Below, piece after piece: positions 32,449-40,525 of a stretch of DNA of 64,000 bases (positions are counted from its first letter, which is position 1; every line of letters begins with the position of its first letter). The stretch covers positions 1 to 64,000 of the forward strand of contig QEVP01000021.1 of the NCBI GenBank assembly GCA_003576765.1, written 5' to 3'. The notes below the pieces were generated by a model. The model was not told where the DNA came from, made no database searches, and saw nothing but the letters and a program-made list of their open reading frames with translations. The position numbers and the translations under genes are program-made. The stretch is from Pseudomonadota bacterium. Lineage in GTDB: Bacteria > Pseudomonadota > Alphaproteobacteria > Rhizobiales > Xanthobacteraceae.

Positions 32449-32622
32449 ATGTCCGAGATCGTTAAACCACCCTGCGAGCCGGCCGACGACGAACCCGTGC
32501 CGTTCATGCAGCGGGTGCTCGACGACCCGTTCCTGCTTTTGTTCATCGGCATGACCATTCCGACCATCCTCTATCTCGTCTGGGGCGTGATGGAGATCGC
32601 CAACGTTCCGGTCGGCAAATAG
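32449..32622 (+). CDS. Small membrane peptide, possible subunit IIa of the heme-copper complex
   Basis: A 57-residue peptide, start MSEIVKPPCEPADDEPV, with one hydrophobic helix (DPFLLLFIGMTIPTILYLVWGVMEIA) and a short tail. It begins after GAGGGGAG and ends 12 bases before subunit II. In the Thermus ba3 oxidase a single-helix subunit IIa accompanies subunits I and II, so position and topology suggest a similar role. There is no sequence motif to prove it. Confidence 0.72.
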   Translation: MSEIVKPPCEPADDEPVPFMQRVLDDPFLLLFIGMTIPTILYLVWGVMEIANVPVGK

Positions 32623-32634
32623 GAGCGCGACGCG

Positions 32635-33186
32635 ATGGCCATTACCTCTCCCGAACGCCGCGCCTGGTGGAACGAGCCGGTCGAGCGCGTCGAACTGATC
32701 TGGATCGCCGTGGCGCTGCTGTGGGGTCTGTTCATGTTCTTCTTCATGATCGCCTGGCACTTCATCGGCGGTCAGAACCTTGCGACCGAAGCCTACAAGG
32801 TGACGCCGAGCGCCTATCAGGACAAGGTCGATGCGTTCGCCGAGAAGTATCAGGTGCGCGACGAAGCCGGCACGCCGGTGGTGCGGCCACCGGCCGGCGT
32901 CGATGTCTACCTGCTCGGACGGCTGTGGCAGTGGTGGCCGGTGCTGGAATTGGAGAAGGGCCAGAGCTACCGCCTGCATCTGTCGTCGGTCGATTGGCAG
33001 CACGGCTTCTCGCTGCAGCCGACCAACATCAACATCCAGGTTCATCCCGGCTACGAGCACGTCATTACCCTGACGCCGACCGAGAGCGGCGAGTTTGGCA
33101 TCATCTGCAACGAGTTCTGCGGCATCGGTCATCACACCATGACCGGCAAGATCATCGTCGTCGATAGCAAGGCGGAGACGAAATAG
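32635..33186 (+). CDS. Heme-copper oxidase/NO reductase subunit II with CuA site
   Basis: A 183-residue protein: one N-terminal membrane helix (LIWIAVALLWGLFMFFFMIAWHF) and a periplasmic cupredoxin domain. The full CuA set is visible: His123 in DWQHGFSL and C158-x3-C162-x3-H166-x2-M169 in CNEFCGIGHHTM. The single-helix, short form is typical of B-type (ba3-like) enzymes and of the NorS subunit of norSY-type NO reductases. It receives electrons from a cytochrome c or cupredoxin and passes them to subunit I, whose start is one base after its stop. Confidence 0.91.
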   Translation: MAITSPERRAWWNEPVERVELIWIAVALLWGLFMFFFMIAWHFIGGQNLATEAYKVTPSAYQDKVDAFAEKYQVRDEAGTPVVRPPAGVDVYLLGRLWQWWPVLELEKGQSYRLHLSSVDWQHGFSLQPTNINIQVHPGYEHVITLTPTESGEFGIICNEFCGIGHHTMTGKIIVVDSKAETK

Positions 33187-33187
33187 C

Positions 33188-34912
33188 ATGTCTACGTTCG
33201 AGGGGGCTTTAGCGGCGACGCGCGAACGGGTCGCGAATTTCCGCACCTGCCAGTTCACCGGCCTTAAGGTCGATATCGCGGCACAGCGGCTGATTATCGC
33301 CAACGCGGTCGCCGCGGTGGTGTTTCTCGCAGTCGGTGGCTTGATGGGCCTGTTGGTGGCGCTGACGCGCTGGCCGGCCGTGCATCTTCTGCCGGCGGAA
33401 TGGTTCTACCTGATCCTCACCGCGCACGGCGCCAACGTGCTGCTGTTCTGGATCATCTTCTTCGAGATCGCGGTGCTTTATTTCGCCTCCGCGGTGTTGC
33501 TCAATTCGCGCATCGCGGCGCCGAAACTCGGCTGGCTCGGCTTCGTGCTGATGGTGGTCGGCGCCATCATCACCAACATCGCCGTGCTGCAGGGCGAATC
33601 GACGGTGATGTTCACCTCCTATCCGCCGATGATGGCGCGGCCGCATTTCTATCTCGGCATCATCCTGTTCGCCGTCGGCGCGCTGATCGGTGTCGGGCTG
33701 TTCTTCGCGACACTGGTGATCGCCAGGGCCGAGCGTACCTATGAAGGCTCGATCCCGCTCGTCACCTTCGGCGCGCTGACCGCGGCGATCATCGCCGTGT
33801 TCACGCTGGTGTCGGGCGCCATCATCCTCATTCCGACCATGCTGTGGTCGATGGGCCTGATCCGCGACATCGATCCGTTGATGTACAAGCTGGTGTGGTG
33901 GGCGATGGGCCACTCCTCGCAGCAGATCAACGTCTCGGCGCACGTCTCGGTCTGGTACATGATCGGCGCGCTGGTCTTGGGGGCCAAGCCGCTGTCGGAG
34001 AAGGTTAGCCGCGGCGCGTTCTTCCTCTACATCCTGTTCCTGCAACTCGCCTCCGCGCACCATCTGCTGGCCGAGCCCGGCATCAGCGCCGAGTGGAAGA
34101 TCGTCAACACCAGCTACATGATGTATCTCGCCGTGCTCGGCTCGATGATCCACGGCCTGACCGTGCCCGGTTCGATCGAGGCCGCGCAGCGCCGCAACGG
34201 CTTCAACAGAGGCGTGTTCGAGTGGCTGCGCAAGGCGCCATGGGGCAATCCGGCATTCTCCGGCATGTTCCTGTCGCTGGTGATGTTCGGCTTCATCGGC
34301 GGCATCTCTGGCGTGGTGCTCGGCACCGAGCAGCTCAACGTGCTGATGCACAACACCATCTATGTCCCCGGCCACTTCCACGGCACGGTGGTCGCTGGCA
34401 CGACGCTCGCCTTCATGGCCGGCACCTATCTGGTGCTGCCGCTGATTTTCCAGCGCGACATCATCTGGCCGGGGCTGGCGCGGATCCAGCCGTACCTGTT
34501 CGGCATCGGCGCCGCCGGCATCTCGATGTTCATGATGGGGGCGGGCACGCTCGGTGTGGCGCGGCGGCACTGGGACATCAACTTCACCGACGCGGTGATC
34601 GGCTTCCAGCACTCGCCCGGCGCGTTCCTGATGATGGGGCTGAACGGCATCAGCGCCATTCTCGCGGCGCTCGGTGGCATCCTCTATGTGCTGATCGTGG
34701 TCGGCACCGCTCTGTTTGGCAAGAAGATCGTCCCCGGACACAAGATGACGTTCCCGCTGCATTCAGCGGCGCGCGTGGTGTCGAAATACGGCAGCGAAGG
34801 CACGATCAAGCTGCCCGGCACCATCGTGCTGGTGACGATCTTCTTCCTGTCCTTCGTGCTCTATTACTTCGTCAACTGGAAGTATCTGTCCGACCTGTGG
34901 CAGTTCCGCTGA
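33188..34912 (+). CDS. B-type heme-copper oxidase superfamily subunit I with Gln at the active-site Tyr position (candidate sNOR/NorY-like NO reductase)
   Basis: A 574-residue polytopic protein aligning by eye with Thermus ba3 subunit I. Low-spin heme ligands are His80 (TAHGANVLLFW) and His398; the CuB/FeB ligands are His242 (WAMGHSSQQ), His291 and His292 (ASAHHLLAEPG); the high-spin heme ligand is His396 (VPGHFHGTV). In oxygen reductases the helix VI motif is HPxVY with Tyr covalently bound to the His; here it is H-S-S-Q-Q, so Gln246 replaces the Tyr. Loss of that Tyr is a mark of the NO-reducing branches of the superfamily. The CuA subunit, SCO partner and NNR-like control agree. However, the neighbouring heme farnesyltransferase hints at heme O or A, so a divergent oxygen reductase cannot be excluded. 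Confidence 0.9.
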   Translation: MSTFEGALAATRERVANFRTCQFTGLKVDIAAQRLIIANAVAAVVFLAVGGLMGLLVALTRWPAVHLLPAEWFYLILTAHGANVLLFWIIFFEIAVLYFASAVLLNSRIAAPKLGWLGFVLMVVGAIITNIAVLQGESTVMFTSYPPMMARPHFYLGIILFAVGALIGVGLFFATLVIARAERTYEGSIPLVTFGALTAAIIAVFTLVSGAIILIPTMLWSMGLIRDIDPLMYKLVWWAMGHSSQQINVSAHVSVWYMIGALVLGAKPLSEKVSRGAFFLYILFLQLASAHHLLAEPGISAEWKIVNTSYMMYLAVLGSMIHGLTVPGSIEAAQRRNGFNRGVFEWLRKAPWGNPAFSGMFLSLVMFGFIGGISGVVLGTEQLNVLMHNTIYVPGHFHGTVVAGTTLAFMAGTYLVLPLIFQRDIIWPGLARIQPYLFGIGAAGISMFMMGAGTLGVARRHWDINFTDAVIGFQHSPGAFLMMGLNGISAILAALGGILYVLIVVGTALFGKKIVPGHKMTFPLHSAARVVSKYGSEGTIKLPGTIVLVTIFFLSFVLYYFVNWKYLSDLWQFR

Positions 34913-34958
34913 GGCATTTGCGATCATGTCGGGACTGCCGCCACATGCTCAGAGTGCT

Positions 34959-35068
34959 CCCTCTCCCCGCCGGGGAGAGGGTTGGGGAGAGGGGGCGCGA
35001 AAGCGTCATAACGGTGAAACCCCTCACCCGGCTGCTGCGCAGCCGACCTCTCCCCGGCGGGGAGAGGT
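34959..35068. repeat. Pair of GC-rich palindromes between subunit I and the CtaB-SCO gene
   Basis: Two palindromes with 10-bp arms, CCCTCTCCCC-GCC-GGGGAGAGGG (34959-34981) and ACCTCTCCCC-GGC-GGGGAGAGGT (35046-35068), flank a 64-base spacer. They belong to the same kind of extragenic repeat as 12561-12624. The second palindrome contains the GTG start (35067) and supplies a GGAGAG ribosome site for the next gene. Confidence 0.72.
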
Positions 35069-36749
35069 GAAGAGTACGACCGTACGCGCCGCACTGAGCA
35101 CGACCGTGTCGCTGCTCAAGCTGCGGATCGGCATCGCGATCGCCGCCAGCGCCGTTGCCGGTGCCGCCGCGGCGCAAGGTGCGGCCCGGGAAGCGTGGGA
35201 GGTGCTGGCGCTGGCGCTCGCAGTGCTCGGGGCTTCCGGCGCGGCCGGTGCGTTCAACCATTATTACGAGCGCGACCTCGACCGCCGCATGCGGCGCACC
35301 GAGAAGCGGCCGTTCGCGAGCGGGCACCTGACGCCTGGCAAGGGATGGCTCACGGTCTTCGCCGCGCTCGGCGTGGCGTCGCTGGCGCTGGCTTATGTCG
35401 CGGGCGGGGCGGTCAGCGCCGTCTACGTGCTGCTCGGCGGCCTGACCTACGGCGTCGTCTACACGGTGTGGCTGAAGCGCCGCACGCCGATGAACATCGT
35501 CGTCGGCGGGTTGTCCGGCAGCTTCGCCGTGCTGGCCGGTGCCGCGGCGGTTGCCGCGGCGGTCGATCCGATGCCGCAGGCCGTGCCGGTGTTGCTGGCG
35601 CTGGTGATGTTCCTGTGGACGCCGCCGCATTTCTGGAGCCTCGCCGCGGCGCGTCGCGACGATTACGCCAATGCCGGCTTTCCGATGTTGCCGGTGGTTG
35701 CCTCCGAGCGGGTGTGGACCACGGCGATCCTTGCGCACACGGTGGCGCTGACGGTGCTGTCGCTGGTGCCGCTGTGGTTCGGCATGGGGCTGATCTACGG
35801 CGTCGGCGCCGCGACGGGCGGCGCGATCTTCGTGTGGCGAAGCTGGCAGCTTTACCGCGCGCCGAGCCGCACCACGGCGATGGCCACCTTCGGCGCCTCG
35901 CTGATCCACCTGACGCTGCTGACGCTGGCGGTGGTGCTGGATGCCACCATGATGACGCCCGCGGCCGCCACCCAGGCCGGCAACCCGTTCGATCCGAAAA
36001 GCGTGCTGGCGAGAAGCGAAGCGGCGATCGGCACTGAGCTTGGCGATCATACCCTGATCGATCCGAAGGGGCGCCTCATCGCGCTTGCCGACTATCGCGG
36101 CCGGCCGCTGGTCGTCAGCCTCGTTTACACGAGTTGCAGCACCGTGTGCCCGACCACGACGCAGCATCTTCTCGATGCGGTCAAGGAGGCGCGGCGCAAC
36201 CTCGGCACCGACCGCTTCGCGGTGCTGACCGTGGGCTTCGACGCGCGCCGCGATACGCCGCAGCACATGGCGACGTTCGCCCGCCGGCAGGGCATTCCCG
36301 CCACCGGCTGGGACGTTGCCAGCGGCGACGAGGCGACGCTGTCGGCGCTGATGCAGGAGGTGGGCTTCAGCTATCAGGCCGTTGCCGGCGGCTTCGATCA
36401 CATCGCCCAGACCACCATCATCGACGCCGAAGGCCGGGTCTATCGCCAGGTCTATGGCGACGATTTCCCGCTACCGGTGTTCATCGAGCCCTTGAAGGAG
36501 GCGGTGTTCGGCACCTTCACCCGTGCGCTGACGGTTTCGGCGCTGATCGATCGCCTGAGTTTTCTCTGCACCGTCTATGATCCCGGCCAGGGCCGCTATC
36601 GCACGAGCTATGCGATTGCGCTCGGCATCGGCATCGGCGGGCTGTCGCTGGTGATCGCCGGCGTCCTGTTCGTCCGCGGCTGGGTGCGCAACCGCCGGCT
36701 GGAAGCATTGCGGAGCGCTTCCCCGCGGTTGCTCGGACGACAGACGTGA
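35067..36749 (+). CDS. Fusion of protoheme IX farnesyltransferase (CtaB/CyoE) and SCO1/SenC copper chaperone
   Basis: A 560-residue fusion. Residues 1-300 are a UbiA-family membrane enzyme: the first prenyl-diphosphate motif is NHYYERDLDRRMRRTEKRP (Asn64), the second is the ARRDDYANAGFPMLP region, and WTPPHFW is present; CtaB makes heme O from heme B. From about 310 on is a SCO domain with copper ligands Cys357 and Cys361 (CSTVCP) and His445 (FDHIAQTT), then a C-terminal membrane helix. An in-frame ATG at 34926 would add 47 residues encoded wholly by the palindromic repeats; I prefer GTG 35067, where family-like sequence begins. It would farnesylate heme and deliver copper for subunits I and II. 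Its stop overlaps the next start (GTGA). Confidence 0.88.
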   Translation: MKSTTVRAALSTTVSLLKLRIGIAIAASAVAGAAAAQGAAREAWEVLALALAVLGASGAAGAFNHYYERDLDRRMRRTEKRPFASGHLTPGKGWLTVFAALGVASLALAYVAGGAVSAVYVLLGGLTYGVVYTVWLKRRTPMNIVVGGLSGSFAVLAGAAAVAAAVDPMPQAVPVLLALVMFLWTPPHFWSLAAARRDDYANAGFPMLPVVASERVWTTAILAHTVALTVLSLVPLWFGMGLIYGVGAATGGAIFVWRSWQLYRAPSRTTAMATFGASLIHLTLLTLAVVLDATMMTPAAATQAGNPFDPKSVLARSEAAIGTELGDHTLIDPKGRLIALADYRGRPLVVSLVYTSCSTVCPTTTQHLLDAVKEARRNLGTDRFAVLTVGFDARRDTPQHMATFARRQGIPATGWDVASGDEATLSALMQEVGFSYQAVAGGFDHIAQTTIIDAEGRVYRQVYGDDFPLPVFIEPLKEAVFGTFTRALTVSALIDRLSFLCTVYDPGQGRYRTSYAIALGIGIGGLSLVIAGVLFVRGWVRNRRLEALRSASPRLLGRQT

Positions 36750-38314
36750 TCGCGGCGTTGCGCTATGGCGTGAGGCGCGTCTTCGACGTTGCCGAGCGCG
36801 GTCTCGACCGTCTCGCCGGGCCGGCGCTCAATCCGCTCGCCCAGCTTGGCGCACTCGGCTTCTTCCTATTCTGGATCGTCGCGGTCAGCGGCATCTACCT
36901 GTTCATGCTGTTCGATACCGGCGTCGAGAATGCCTATGCGTCGGTCGAATGGTACTCCACGCGCCATGCCTGGCACGCCGGCGTGATGCGCAGTTTCCAT
37001 CGCTATGCCTCCGACATGATGGTCGTGGTGATGGCGCTGCATCTGTTGCGGGAGTTTTCGCGCGACCGCTATCGCGGCGCCCGCTGGTTCTCGTGGCTGA
37101 CCGGCGTGCCGGTGATCTGGTTTCTCTACATGTCCGGCATTACCGGCTACTGGCTGGTGTGGGACCAGTTGGCGCAATACGTCGCCACTACCTCGACCGA
37201 ACTGCTCGACTGGCTGCCGATCTTCGGCGAGCCGATCGCCCGGAATTTTCTCGCGCCGTCGAGCCTGTCGAACCGCTTCTTCACGCTGCTGGTATTCTTG
37301 CACATCGCGGTGCCGCTGGTGCTGCTGTTCATGCTGTGGATTCACATCCAGCGCATCACCCGGCCGAAAGTGAACCCGCCGCGCACGCTGGCGGCGCTGA
37401 TGATGCTGGCGCTGTTCGCGGTGTCGGTGGCGAAGCCGGCCCTGAGCCAGGGGCCGGCCGATCTCGCCAGGGTGCCGAGCCCGGTCGGGCTCGACTGGTT
37501 TTACCTGCCGCTCTATCCGCTGGCCGATGCCGCGCCCGGCGCGCTGTGGGGGCTGCTCGCGGCGGCGACCGTCATGCTGGCGGCGATGCCGTGGCTGCCG
37601 CCGCTGCGGCGGATGCGGCCCGCCACCGTCGATCTTCCCCATTGCAACGGCTGCGGCCGCTGCGTCGAGGACTGTCCCTACGACGCGCTGCAACTGGTGC
37701 CGCGCAGCGACGATCTGCCTTACGCGCTTGAGGTTGCGGTCGATACCGACAAATGCGTGAGCTGCGGCATCTGTACCGGTTCGTGTCCGTCATCGACGCC
37801 GTTCCGCAGCGTCGGCCCGCTCGTCACCGGCATCGATCTGCCGGACCTGACCTTTGCCTCGCAGCGCGAGCGCGTTCATGAACTGGCCAAGGTATCGGAT
37901 CACAAGGTATCGGATCAGTCGCCGCGCCTTCTGGTGATCGGCTGCCAGCATGGCGCGGCCGGCACGCGGACCGACGATACGCTGTCGCTGCCCTGTGTCG
38001 CCATGGCACCGCCCTCGCTGATCGACTATGCGCTGAGCCGCGGCTTTGCCGACGGTGTCGTCGTCGCCGGCTGCGCCGAGAGCGCCTGCTACAACCGGCT
38101 CGGCGTCGAATGGATGCAACAGCGTATCGCCGGCGAGCGCGATCCCTACCTGCGCTCGCGGGTGCCGCGCGAACGCATCCTGTCGGTCTGGGCTTCGCCG
38201 ACCGAGGGCGCGCGGCTCGACCGGGAGCTTGCGGCCTTCAAGGAACGGCTTGCGACCATGACGGAGTCGCAATCGCCGGCCGAGGCGCCGGCGATCAGGG
38301 AGGCGGCGTCATGA
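36746..38314 (+). CDS. Three-part fusion: cytochrome b (bc1/b6-type) - two [4Fe-4S] ferredoxin - FlpD/MvhD-like Fe-S domain
   Basis: A 522-residue protein. Residues ~1-290 are a cytochrome b N-terminal domain with two heme-b His pairs spaced by 14 residues (His85/His99 and His186/His200) and the quinone-site-like segment SGITGYWLVWD. Residues 300-347 hold two [4Fe-4S] motifs (CNGCGRCVEDCP and CVSCGICTGSCP). Residues ~390-475 resemble the FlpD/MvhD hydrogenase iron-sulfur subunit (VIGCQHGA, LPCVAMAPP, DGVVVAGCAESACYNR). It should carry electrons between the quinone pool and soluble or cytoplasmic Fe-S partners, and could feed the heme-copper enzyme. I know of no characterised protein with this order. 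GTG start overlaps the CtaB-SCO stop; its own stop overlaps the next ATG. Confidence 0.85.
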   Translation: MIAALRYGVRRVFDVAERGLDRLAGPALNPLAQLGALGFFLFWIVAVSGIYLFMLFDTGVENAYASVEWYSTRHAWHAGVMRSFHRYASDMMVVVMALHLLREFSRDRYRGARWFSWLTGVPVIWFLYMSGITGYWLVWDQLAQYVATTSTELLDWLPIFGEPIARNFLAPSSLSNRFFTLLVFLHIAVPLVLLFMLWIHIQRITRPKVNPPRTLAALMMLALFAVSVAKPALSQGPADLARVPSPVGLDWFYLPLYPLADAAPGALWGLLAAATVMLAAMPWLPPLRRMRPATVDLPHCNGCGRCVEDCPYDALQLVPRSDDLPYALEVAVDTDKCVSCGICTGSCPSSTPFRSVGPLVTGIDLPDLTFASQRERVHELAKVSDHKVSDQSPRLLVIGCQHGAAGTRTDDTLSLPCVAMAPPSLIDYALSRGFADGVVVAGCAESACYNRLGVEWMQQRIAGERDPYLRSRVPRERILSVWASPTEGARLDRELAAFKERLATMTESQSPAEAPAIREAAS

Positions 38315-38823
38315 GCATGCCAGTTTCCGTGCCACGGCTTGCCGGGCTGTTCGTCGTGCTGGCGGCGGTGATGGCGTTTGCCGCTATCTTCTCCGATGCC
38401 CCGGCCTACCGGCAGATTCCACCCGGCACCGGCGTCATCAAGTTCAGCTTCAACCACAGCGCCGACCGCGCCAAGGAGTGCCGCCGCCGCACCCCGGAGG
38501 AACTGGCGAAGCTGCCGCCGAACATGCGCCGCCCGGTCGAGTGTCCGCGCGGACGGCGCGGCATCGTGGCTGAGCTTACGATCGACGAGAAAACGGTGTT
38601 CAGCGGGGAGATTCCACCCTCCGGCTTCGCCAAGGACGGACCCTCGCAAATCTACCGGCGCTTCGTGGTGAAGGTCGGCAGCCACACCGTTACGGCGCGG
38701 CTGCGCGACACGCCACGCACCGAAGGTTTCGACCACGAGCGGACGGAGGCGGTCACGGTTGTGCCGGGGCAGAGCCTCGCGCTCGACTTCCGCCCCGAGC
38801 ATGGCGGGTTCGTCTGGCGCTGA
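38311..38823 (+). CDS. Small membrane-anchored periplasmic protein, unknown function
   Basis: A 170-residue protein starting in the stop of the cytochrome b fusion (ATGA). One N-terminal helix (LAGLFVVLAAVMAFAAIF) anchors a beta-rich domain with two cysteines (Cys in AKECRRR and VECPRG) and KVGSHTVTARLRDTPRTEGFDHERTEAV. It has no motif I recognise. Translational coupling suggests it is an accessory or assembly part of the heme-copper complex; the cysteine pair and Arg-rich stretch could bind a cofactor or partner (inference). Confidence 0.75.
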   Translation: MSMPVSVPRLAGLFVVLAAVMAFAAIFSDAPAYRQIPPGTGVIKFSFNHSADRAKECRRRTPEELAKLPPNMRRPVECPRGRRGIVAELTIDEKTVFSGEIPPSGFAKDGPSQIYRRFVVKVGSHTVTARLRDTPRTEGFDHERTEAVTVVPGQSLALDFRPEHGGFVWR

Positions 38824-38850: not shown

Positions 38851-38864
38851 TTGACGTGGCGCAA
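38851..38864. promoter_or_regulatory. TTGAC-type FNR/NNR-like box upstream of the Crp/FNR regulator
   Basis: TTGAC-GTGG-CGCAA has one good half site (TTGAC) and the outer TTG-N8-CAA, 61 bases before the preferred start of the regulator, suggesting autoregulation or control by a relative. Confidence 0.35.
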
Positions 38865-38924
38865 TATCGGCCTGGCCGGGCCGTGCTTGGCTGTTGCCAG
38901 TGCACTGCCTGCCGGGAGCCGAAC

Positions 38925-39725
38925 ATGACGCCCGCCGACTGGTCGATCGTCAACCGTGTGCCCATCTTCCGCTCGATGGGCGAGGCGCTCTCGCGCTCGA
39001 TGCTCGGCCATCGCATCGTCCGCGTCTACGACCGCGGCGAGCTCTTGTTTCAGCAGGGCGACCCGGCGACCTGCTGCTTCCTGATGCTCGAAGGCTGGGT
39101 CAAGCTCTACCGCGAGACGGCCGACGGCCATGAGGTGGTGGTGTCGCTGTTCACCACCGGGGAGAGTTTTGCCGAGGCGATGATGTTCCGCGGCGGCCGC
39201 TATCCGGCGACCGCGGAAACGGTGACGGCGGCCCGGCTCCTGCAGATCGACGGTCAGTTGCTGCACGATGCGGTGATGCGCGATCCGCAGATTTCGTTCG
39301 AGATGCTGGCGGCGTCGTCGCTGCACCTGCGGCGGCTGGTCGAGCAGGTCGAACAGCTCAAGGCGCAGTCGGCGCCGAAGCGCATCGCGAGCTTTCTTCT
39401 CACGCTCACTCCAGTGCGCTCGGGCGAGGCGCGCATCGAACTGCCTTACGAAAAACTTCTGATCGCCAACCGCCTCGGCATGAAGCCGGAAAGCTTTTCG
39501 CGGGCATTGCGGCGCCTGCGCAGCGTCGGCGTTTCCGTGGAGCGTGAGTTCGTTCGCATCAAGGACGTGATCCGGCTTGCCGCCTTCATCGAGGGGGAGG
39601 CACCTGCCGATCTGGTATGCCGGATGATGCAGAACCCGGCGCAGTGCGAGGGGTTCGGTCCCGGCTGTATCGAGGTGCCTTACGCCGGCAGGATGCGCAC
39701 TTTGACGTCGCGCGGCGGCGCCTGA
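38925..39725 (+). CDS. Crp/FNR-family transcriptional regulator (DNR/NNR-like)
   Basis: About 266 residues: cyclic-nucleotide-like beta-roll (ELLFQQGDPATCCFLMLEGWVKLYRETADGHEVVV and GESFAEAMMFRGGRYPATAET), dimer helix, and HTH with recognition sequence PESFSRALRRL, i.e. the E-x2-SR arrangement of FNR that reads TTGA half sites. The SFAEAMMF and RYPATAE segments are typical of DNR/NNR regulators, which sense NO through heme. ATG 38925 has GGGAG six bases upstream; an earlier GTG (38856) would add a Cys-rich segment (GCCQCTAC) like an FNR iron-sulfur site but lacks a ribosome site. The C-terminal tail has three more Cys. Its end overlaps the convergent modD by 46 bases. Confidence 0.87.
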   Translation: MTPADWSIVNRVPIFRSMGEALSRSMLGHRIVRVYDRGELLFQQGDPATCCFLMLEGWVKLYRETADGHEVVVSLFTTGESFAEAMMFRGGRYPATAETVTAARLLQIDGQLLHDAVMRDPQISFEMLAASSLHLRRLVEQVEQLKAQSAPKRIASFLLTLTPVRSGEARIELPYEKLLIANRLGMKPESFSRALRRLRSVGVSVEREFVRIKDVIRLAAFIEGEAPADLVCRMMQNPAQCEGFGPGCIEVPYAGRMRTLTSRGGA

Positions 39726-40525
39726 TAGGGCGCCGACGTCACCAGGATATCGGCGCCGGCCGCCGCATAGGCCGCCGCATTGGCAGCGTTGATGCCGCCG
39801 GCCGCGGCTAGCACGGGGCGCGGCGACAAGGTGCTCAGCACCGCCGCGGTCGCGGCAACCTGCTCCGGCGTCATCTTGTCCACCTGAATGATTTCGGCGC
39901 CGGCACGGGCGAGCGCAGCGGCCCCGTCGATGTCGGTGGCTTCGGCGGCGAGCCGCCGTTCGGGGGCATGGGCCTTGAGGCGGGCGAAATGCTCGGAAAG
40001 CGGGGCGGCGTCGTTCAGGAGTGTGCGGTGCTCCTCGAACACCAGCACATAATCCGACAGGCCGAGGCGATGCGGCACGGCCCCGCCGGCCTCGATGGCC
40101 CGCAGCGCCCACTGCTTCATGCCCGGCATGTGCTTGCGCGTGCAGGCGACGCGGCAGTGCGGATTGACGCTTTGGGCCGCATCGACAATGGCTCGCGCGC
40201 CGGTGGCGATGCCGGACAGGATCTCGATCAGCGTCTGCGCCATCTTGTAGGTCCGGTGCAGGCTTCCGGCCGGACCCGTGGCTTCCAGCAGCAGCGTCCG
40301 CGCGGCGGCTCGCGTTCCCGAGCCGACAGCGATCGACGTCGAGGCGCCGGACAGTTCGAACATCCGCCCGGCTTCTTCGACGGCACAGACCGTCATGTCG
40401 TGGCGTGCGGTCAGTGTCGCCCGCGCCGGTTGACCGGCGATACCGAGCCCTTCGGTGGTCGGGTCCGAATAGGGGCAGTCGTCGCGCAGGATGCGCGCGA
40501 GATCCTCGTCGTGGATGGTGGCCAT
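39680..40525 (-). CDS. modD: ModD-like protein (nicotinate-nucleotide pyrophosphorylase family)
   Basis: A 281-residue relative of quinolinate phosphoribosyltransferase. It shows EDLARILRDDCPYSDPTTEGLGI, the conserved TRKHMPGMKQWALRAIEAGGAVPHRLGLSDYVLVFEEH (TRKT-PG-R in NadC) and EIIQVDKMTPEQV, AAAGGINAANAAAYAAAGADILVTSAPY. ModD genes usually accompany molybdate transport genes; none is visible here. It converges on the Crp/FNR gene with a 46-base overlap. Its biochemical role is not established. NadC activity is less likely because of the ModD-type sequence and lack of nadAB neighbours. Confidence 0.8.
   Translation of the reverse strand: MATIHDEDLARILRDDCPYSDPTTEGLGIAGQPARATLTARHDMTVCAVEEAGRMFELSGASTSIAVGSGTRAAARTLLLEATGPAGSLHRTYKMAQTLIEILSGIATGARAIVDAAQSVNPHCRVACTRKHMPGMKQWALRAIEAGGAVPHRLGLSDYVLVFEEHRTLLNDAAPLSEHFARLKAHAPERRLAAEATDIDGAAALARAGAEIIQVDKMTPEQVAATAAVLSTLSPRPVLAAAGGINAANAAAYAAAGADILVTSAPYQAPPRDVKVRILPA

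Follow-up and report, generated by a model that had tools for sequence, protein, structure and literature searches.

The heme-copper nitric oxide reductase eNOR is defined by a glutamine at the position of the active-site tyrosine (PMC8756737) and has been characterised biochemically, as stated in PMC11388526. As far as could be checked, the published descriptions of its operon cover subunits I and II. In a window of 64,000 nucleotides (the whole stretch of DNA that was analysed, positions 1 to 64,000 of the forward strand of contig QEVP01000021.1, GenBank assembly GCA_003576765.1, from an alphaproteobacterium of the Xanthobacteraceae), we identified a gene at positions 36746-38314 that fuses a cytochrome b to two [4Fe-4S] motifs and an FlpD domain. 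Together with a small partner gene, here called ORFX, it lies in one operon with a predicted eNOR, to whose described genes both are additions. This three-module combination is already present in a published table but unexplained: Table A3 of PMC8756737 lists, without comment or function, the protein RME88945.1, in which cytochrome b6, DMSOR beta-like iron-sulphur (Fe-S) and FlpD parts share one open reading frame (ORF), and which differs from the fusion by an additional cytochrome c (C1) domain. The locus thus pairs a known enzyme family with a fused electron-transfer partner that is conserved and, as far as could be checked, has not been described before.

Architecture of the fusion protein

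The fusion gene and its parts are placed as follows in the window.

36746-38314, + strand: cytochrome b - petD-like - 2x[4Fe-4S] - FlpD fusion (GTG start, 522 residues)
36998-37345, + strand: bis-heme segment (His85 and His99 in helix B, His186 and His200 in helix D)
37643-37786, + strand: two [4Fe-4S] motifs (C300xxCxxCxxxC310 and C337xxCxxCxxxC347)
37922-38260, + strand: FlpD/MvhD domain (PF02662 match; Cys400, Cys417, Cys443 and Cys448)

The three modules proposed in an earlier, sequence-only reading of this DNA were recovered in a single ORF, each above the Pfam gathering score: Cytochrome_B at residues 25-203 (5.6e-21), Fer4 twice at about 295-350 (1.4e-10) and FlpD (PF02662) at 413-505 (8.4e-10; 39.2 bits, with the cut-off at 22.3). 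All three profiles, including the FlpD profile on which the naming of the third domain depended, matched in 25/25 members of a divergent set of full-length homologues that are 41-86% identical to the window fusion. The bc1/b6 type assigned to the cytochrome b also stood, with one correction: the cytochrome b6 part is followed, ahead of the ferredoxin, by a petD-like segment of two helices (about residues 215-285), so that by alignment the membrane portion comprises b6 and some of subunit IV. In this segment DW[F/Y] replaces the PEWY motif, and D250 and W251 are invariant in the 25 divergent members. The protein shares with petB and petD of the bc1/b6f complexes the fold, the four heme b histidines and a partial subunit IV with a PEWY-like DW, but its subunit IV part stops after two helices and Fe-S domains follow.

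Against solved structures, the family profile matched cytochrome b6 (6rqf_I, 7.9e-32) and MvhD-type chains (9sw2_D, 4.1e-13; 5odc_D, 2e-12), and the FlpD domain of the window alone matched 5odc_D (2.1e-4). MvhD/FlpD of the methanogen hydrogenase-heterodisulfide reductase has the same domain with its conserved cysteines, but there it is a free subunit bridging the hydrogenase and the flavoprotein HdrA, whereas here it is fused to a membrane cytochrome b. No solved protein with all three modules was found in PDB sequence and profile searches with the fusion or the family profile. The nearest curated families are the cytochromes b ExtP and ExtQ of selenite/tellurite reduction operons (NF040969 and NF040970); the fusion nevertheless scored far below their NCBIfam equivalog cut-offs (107.7 of 290 and 27.5 of 150 bits, respectively), and neither model contains the ferredoxin or FlpD part. 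In public annotation the gene is named only as a 'cytochrome b N-terminal domain-containing protein'.

The predicted cofactor ligands are nearly invariant. His85 and His99 were kept in 70/70 aligned homologues, and His186 and His200 in all 67 that cover those positions. The eight ferredoxin cysteines were kept in every full-length homologue except a variant with an FAD-NAD tail, described below, and the four FlpD cysteines in all but that variant and one protein with Gly at Cys443 (L101). Median pairwise identity was 64% in the cytochrome core, 58% in the ferredoxin, 44% in FlpD and 35% in the linker. An origin of the fusion by chance or as a frame artefact was ruled out by these ligands and by full-length conservation in 77 further sampled genomes.

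Hydropathy and homology together give six transmembrane helices, of which helix B, the carrier of His85 and His99, lies below the hydropathy threshold and was placed by the cytochrome b alignment. Because of the hydrophobic helices and an Arg-rich stretch that precedes the ferredoxin, the Fe-S tail is predicted to lie in the cytoplasm next to heme bH. The N-terminus would lie on the same side; of the two hemes, bL would sit close to the periplasmic surface of the membrane and bH close to the cytoplasmic one.

The neighbouring heme-copper enzyme

The other genes of the operon and the regulator gene next to it, all on the same strand, are listed in order.

32449-32622, + strand: small single-transmembrane protein of 57 residues, probable third structural eNOR subunit (subunit IIa-like), a conserved ORF upstream of subunit II
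32635-33186, + strand: predicted eNOR subunit II, one transmembrane helix and a cupredoxin domain with CuA ligands H123, C158, C162, H166 and M169 (TIGR02866 CoxB-like, 1.1e-11)
33188-34912, + strand: predicted eNOR subunit I, B-family heme-copper (COX1, 1.4e-63), with Gln246 replacing the cross-linking Tyr
34926-36749, + strand: fused heme O synthase (CtaB/CyoE; TIGR01473, 1.7e-72) and SCO1/SenC copper chaperone (PF02630, 1.3e-15)
38311-38823, + strand: ORFX, 170 residues, one transmembrane helix and a periplasmic immunoglobulin (Ig)-like beta domain, constant partner of the fusion
38856-39725, + strand: Crp/Fnr-family regulator (PF00027, 8.3e-22), conserved in the two nearest relatives and in some further ones

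The order is thus small subunit, subunit II, subunit I, CtaB-SCO, fusion and ORFX, followed by the regulator. The start of the fusion overlaps the stop of CtaB-SCO (GTGA, 36746-36749) and its stop overlaps the start of ORFX (ATGA, 38311-38314), and because of both overlaps the translational coupling to the heme-copper genes that had been claimed is plausible.

Subunit I aligns with the B-family ba3 oxidase 4gp4_A, with Gln246 at the position of that enzyme's cross-linking Tyr. Gln was present in 67/67 eNOR-like relatives, and among the 69 aligned sequences Tyr occurred only in the two oxygen-reductase plasmid controls, from Haloarcula (L176) and Geobacillus (L177). The heme and metal ligands His 242, 291, 292, 388, 396 and 398 are conserved, and the CuA ligands of subunit II were kept in 67-68 of 68 relatives. 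Since the Gln marker and the metal-ligand histidines are accompanied by a CuA subunit II immediately upstream, subunit I is assigned by its residues to the eNOR-type nitric oxide reductases. The identity of the altered subunit I of the sequence-only reading was refined accordingly. An oxygen reductase was ruled out by the Gln in place of Tyr in all relatives, and sNOR, gNOR, bNOR, cNOR and qNOR by the residues that PMC8756737 tabulates for them (N, D, N, E and E, respectively, against Q here). The marker residue, the metal-ligand histidines, the CuA subunit, the small transmembrane subunit and the denitrification setting are all shared with the eNOR operon as described (PMC8756737; PMC11388526). 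The small protein has the core QRxLDNPFLLLFLGVxxPTxxYxxWGxxE in relatives, and a small ORF stands at the equivalent position in the Thermus and Thermomicrobium loci as well.

Distribution and linkage to eNOR

Homologues were counted in genome samples at the order, class and phylum level, which are not a census and each include the genome of the window; many of the relatives' genomes are fragmented, and beyond Pseudomonadota plasmids only were sampled. Full-length homologues occurred in 22/397 genomes of the order, 24/385 of the class and 34/398 of the phylum (roughly 5-9%), by which a lineage-specific oddity was ruled out. A Defluviimonas plasmid carries a further homologue with 58.7% identity, and weak plasmid matches in Sinorhizobium and Azospirillum were rejected as ordinary bc1 cytochrome b.

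Subunit II, subunit I, (ctaB), SCO, fusion and ORFX were contiguous in 52/63 mapped loci, and ORFX adjoined the fusion in all 63. The non-contiguous loci comprise five contig ends (L109, L120, L127, L128 and L136) and one divergent arrangement (L129); in five others (L121, L122, L124, L133 and L134) the fusion-ORFX pair stands apart, with eNOR subunit I elsewhere in each genome. Among the 63 loci whose neighbours were tabulated, no homologue was seen in an unrelated context with a known role. In the alphaproteobacterial sample the fusion (24/385) and eNOR subunit I (23/372) were found in the same genomes except one (G670), whose contig ends about 0.9 kb past the fusion, so the suggested co-occurrence with the altered subunit I is one-to-one there but for a contig end. 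Over 50 loci, pairwise distances between the fusion proteins correlated with those between the subunits I at r = 0.87, the highest value; the other pairs tested gave 0.63-0.83.

The fusion gene is duplicated in tandem at L120:2371-5843 and L131:7632-10994, with all ligands in both copies, in genomes of 1.2-1.9 Mb. One in-frame stop was seen within the homologue alignment range in five genomes of one family (G864, G852, G840, G802 and G810); it may lie beyond the gene end or may be real.

Denitrification context

Genes of denitrification flank many of the mapped loci. NirJ was found at 12 loci (TIGR04051, 575.9 bits), siroheme decarboxylase/NirDLGH-type genes at 14, and NosR at 10 (721.7 bits, short of the strict cut-off of that model). 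Cytochrome cd1/NirF-like propellers, assigned by sequence character and context with no curated family match, flank 26 loci, and an ApbE/NosX-like gene (8 loci) and an NnrS-like gene (7 loci) were assigned by inspection only. A bacteriohemerythrin gene, whose product possibly binds nitric oxide (NO) or O2, often lies near ORFX (20/63 loci, e.g., L107:10096-10506 and L011:17113-17517).

The genome of the window, which is 74% complete, has two NirK matches over the cut-off and three heme-copper subunit I genes, namely the eNOR, a cbb3-like one and one taken as aa3; in this incomplete genome neither cNOR nor qNOR was seen. Because two NirK are present and no cNOR or qNOR was seen, the eNOR is likely the NO reductase of a NirK organism, as judged from gene content. 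The second NirK match (G000:C36:8158-9369, L182) lies in a long ORF, in which a c-type heme motif (CxxCH) and a region resembling a cupredoxin also occur.

Loci without the module and exchange of the tail

The eNORs of Thermus thermophilus and Thermomicrobium roseum, with a subunit I about 45% identical to that of the window and with the Gln present, offer a comparison. Their loci have the small subunit, subunit II and subunit I but neither the fusion nor ORFX, and because of this the fusion-ORFX module is an addition to the enzyme and not part of its catalytic core. On the Thermus plasmids (L173 and L174), Rrf2-family and DUF542 genes come after those of the eNOR subunits, a setting of the NO-stress type.

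A second informative locus is the eNOR operon of genome G1068, which has two cytochrome b genes, one with the usual Fer4-FlpD tail and the other with a Fer2-FAD-NAD tail; heme d1 biosynthesis genes lie directly upstream of the latter.

L137:10075-11994 (= L188:2637-4619), - strand: FAD-NAD paralogue of the fusion (Fer2, 2.3e-14; FAD_binding_6, 1.6e-14; NAD_binding_1, 2.1e-21)

Tails of the Fer2-FAD-NAD kind are NAD(P)H oxidoreductases. Since the same cytochrome b here bears a tail of a kind that typically oxidises NAD(P)H, electron input from the cytoplasm is favoured. No other observation hints as strongly that the cytochrome b of the fusion exchanges electrons with a soluble cytoplasmic carrier, most likely receiving them.

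The opposite direction was also considered, in which the cytochrome b would oxidise quinol at its Qo-like site and feed the eNOR directly in a supercomplex, leaving the Fe-S tail as a side branch or as a redox/NO sensor. The four invariant heme ligands, D250-W251 at the PEWY position and the kinship to ExtP and ExtQ are compatible with such a quinol dehydrogenase. Nevertheless, the operon holds no obvious periplasmic acceptor: the Rieske protein and cytochrome c1/f are absent from it and from the annotated Defluviimonas operon, and neither was seen in the conserved gene order. The twelve near-invariant cysteines argue that the main current runs through the tail, and the exchange for Fer2-FAD-NAD points to the cytoplasm, so we regard this explanation as quite unlikely.

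Electron bifurcation, which the sequence-only reading had raised for the pair of b hemes, fared worst. In its quinone-based form, one electron of a quinol at the Qo site would pass to the eNOR via CuA and the other via bL and bH to the cytoplasmic Fe-S tail, to yield a low-potential reductant; the Qo-like motif, the two b hemes and the Fe-S clusters on the negative side of the membrane are indeed ordered as for a Q-cycle with Fe-S output. Textbook values put ubiquinol at about +0.1 V and CuA at about +0.25 V. With these potentials the second electron would be left at around 0 V or a little lower, far above the potential of a bacterial ferredoxin, and would also have to move against the membrane potential. 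Flavin-based bifurcating complexes, for their part, differ by an HdrA-like flavin subunit, which was found neither in the fusion nor in the operon; the operon has no hydrogenase either (HdrA was not searched for genome-wide). The only FAD domain seen is that of the G1068 paralogue, where it belongs to an ordinary Fer2-FAD-NAD reductase, and the FlpD of the window is the only one found in its 74% complete genome. Because no flavin subunit is present and these potentials, with the membrane potential opposed, are unfavourable, bifurcation is highly improbable.

A proposed route for cytoplasmic electrons

Taking together the linkage to eNOR, the co-occurrence, the distance correlation, the denitrification context, the exchange of the tail and the topology, we favour, with a confidence somewhat short of an even chance, the explanation that the fusion and ORFX form an accessory module carried with proteobacterial eNOR operons, in which the fusion would be the subunit that transfers electrons within the membrane, leading them from the cytoplasm via bH and bL to quinone and/or to the eNOR. 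The data show the domains of the fusion, its invariant ligands, its genomic linkage to eNOR and the denitrification setting; the topology, cofactor occupancy, electron donor and direction of electron flow are what we infer for the following scheme. A cytoplasmic reductant would dock on the FlpD domain, and electrons would pass from the FlpD cluster to the two [4Fe-4S] clusters, to heme bH and on to heme bL. From there they may enter the quinone pool and/or travel, at the periplasmic face and with ORFX as the constant partner of the fusion, towards the CuA-containing eNOR, so that cytoplasmic electrons would drive NO reduction for respiration or detoxification. A quinone-reactive role is plausible, as the heme ligands and the Qo-like DW are kept. 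Electrons that enter from the cytoplasm move downhill by textbook potentials and are aided by the membrane potential.

Several observations weigh against this scheme. The absence of the module from the Thermus and Thermomicrobium loci indicates that it is not needed for catalysis as such, and with the CuA site of subunit II intact an ordinary cytochrome c could serve the eNOR. The conserved D250-W251 suits quinol oxidation as well as quinone reduction. No cytoplasmic partner of the fusion was identified, and the AlphaFold model built from three sequences was unusable (predicted local distance difference test, pLDDT, of 42), so the topology rests on hydropathy and homology. Finally, the module sits in the assembly half of the operon, with ctaB and SCO, which suits a role in maturation.

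This last point leads to the main rival explanation, in which the fusion and ORFX would form a device similar to CcoG or NosR, sending electrons from the cytoplasm through the membrane for the reduction of copper or of cysteine thiols while the CuA, and the active-site metal, of the eNOR are loaded by SCO. The fusion and ORFX genes do come after ctaB and SCO. The cupric reductase CcoG/FixG of cbb3 oxidase assembly likewise contains a pair of tetranuclear Fe-S clusters together with an Ig-like domain in the periplasm, and it is encoded downstream of the structural genes of its heme-copper enzyme (PMC7558416). The structure model of ORFX is an Ig-like beta-sandwich of moderate confidence (pLDDT 72), and its conserved residues are His49, Cys57, Cys78 and His125, the two cysteines being present in most members. 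However, CcoG lacks an FlpD domain and has not been described as a cytochrome b with two hemes, and ORFX has no sequence match to it: comparisons of the ORFX profile and of single members with PDB sequences and Pfam gave nothing convincing, FixG_C included, Pfam gave no FixG or FixG_C match for the fusion either, and the fold search with ORFX returned nothing at E <= 0.001. The ORFX cysteines are lost in at least one member (L120), the Thermus and Thermomicrobium eNORs are evidently matured without the pair, and in the five genomes noted above the pair is located away from both SCO and the eNOR. A bis-heme cytochrome with a Qo-like motif also exceeds what such a reductase needs. We therefore consider an assembly role somewhat unlikely.

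Other features of the operon were also recorded. In Defluviimonas CtaB and SCO are each encoded by a gene of their own. At the eNOR locus of Thermomicrobium the heme o synthase has about 600 residues and may be a similar CtaB-SCO fusion. The promoter scan of the operon gave no sigma-70-like site, and the search for an Fnr-type palindrome gave no match near the operon start. A ModD-like gene (window 39680-40525, - strand; TIGR01334, 8.1e-72) adjoins the Crp/Fnr regulator.

Implications for proteobacterial eNOR

In its most specific form, which we regard as rather doubtful, the route favoured above would place proteobacterial eNOR in a larger complex, in which a Rieske-less cytochrome b takes electrons from a cytoplasmic Fe-S carrier, or in the FAD-NAD variant from NAD(P)H, and passes them directly through the membrane to an NO reductase with CuA, ORFX being the periplasmic linker. 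If true, such a complex would be an undescribed ferredoxin/NAD(P)H:nitric oxide oxidoreductase. The greenhouse gas nitrous oxide (N2O) arises in the step in which toxic NO is reduced, and eNOR is little studied and may conserve energy. The fusion makes the source of its electrons, or the route of its assembly, directly testable, and it is a handy genomic marker for the proteobacterial eNOR, an enzyme that is often misannotated as cytochrome c oxidase.

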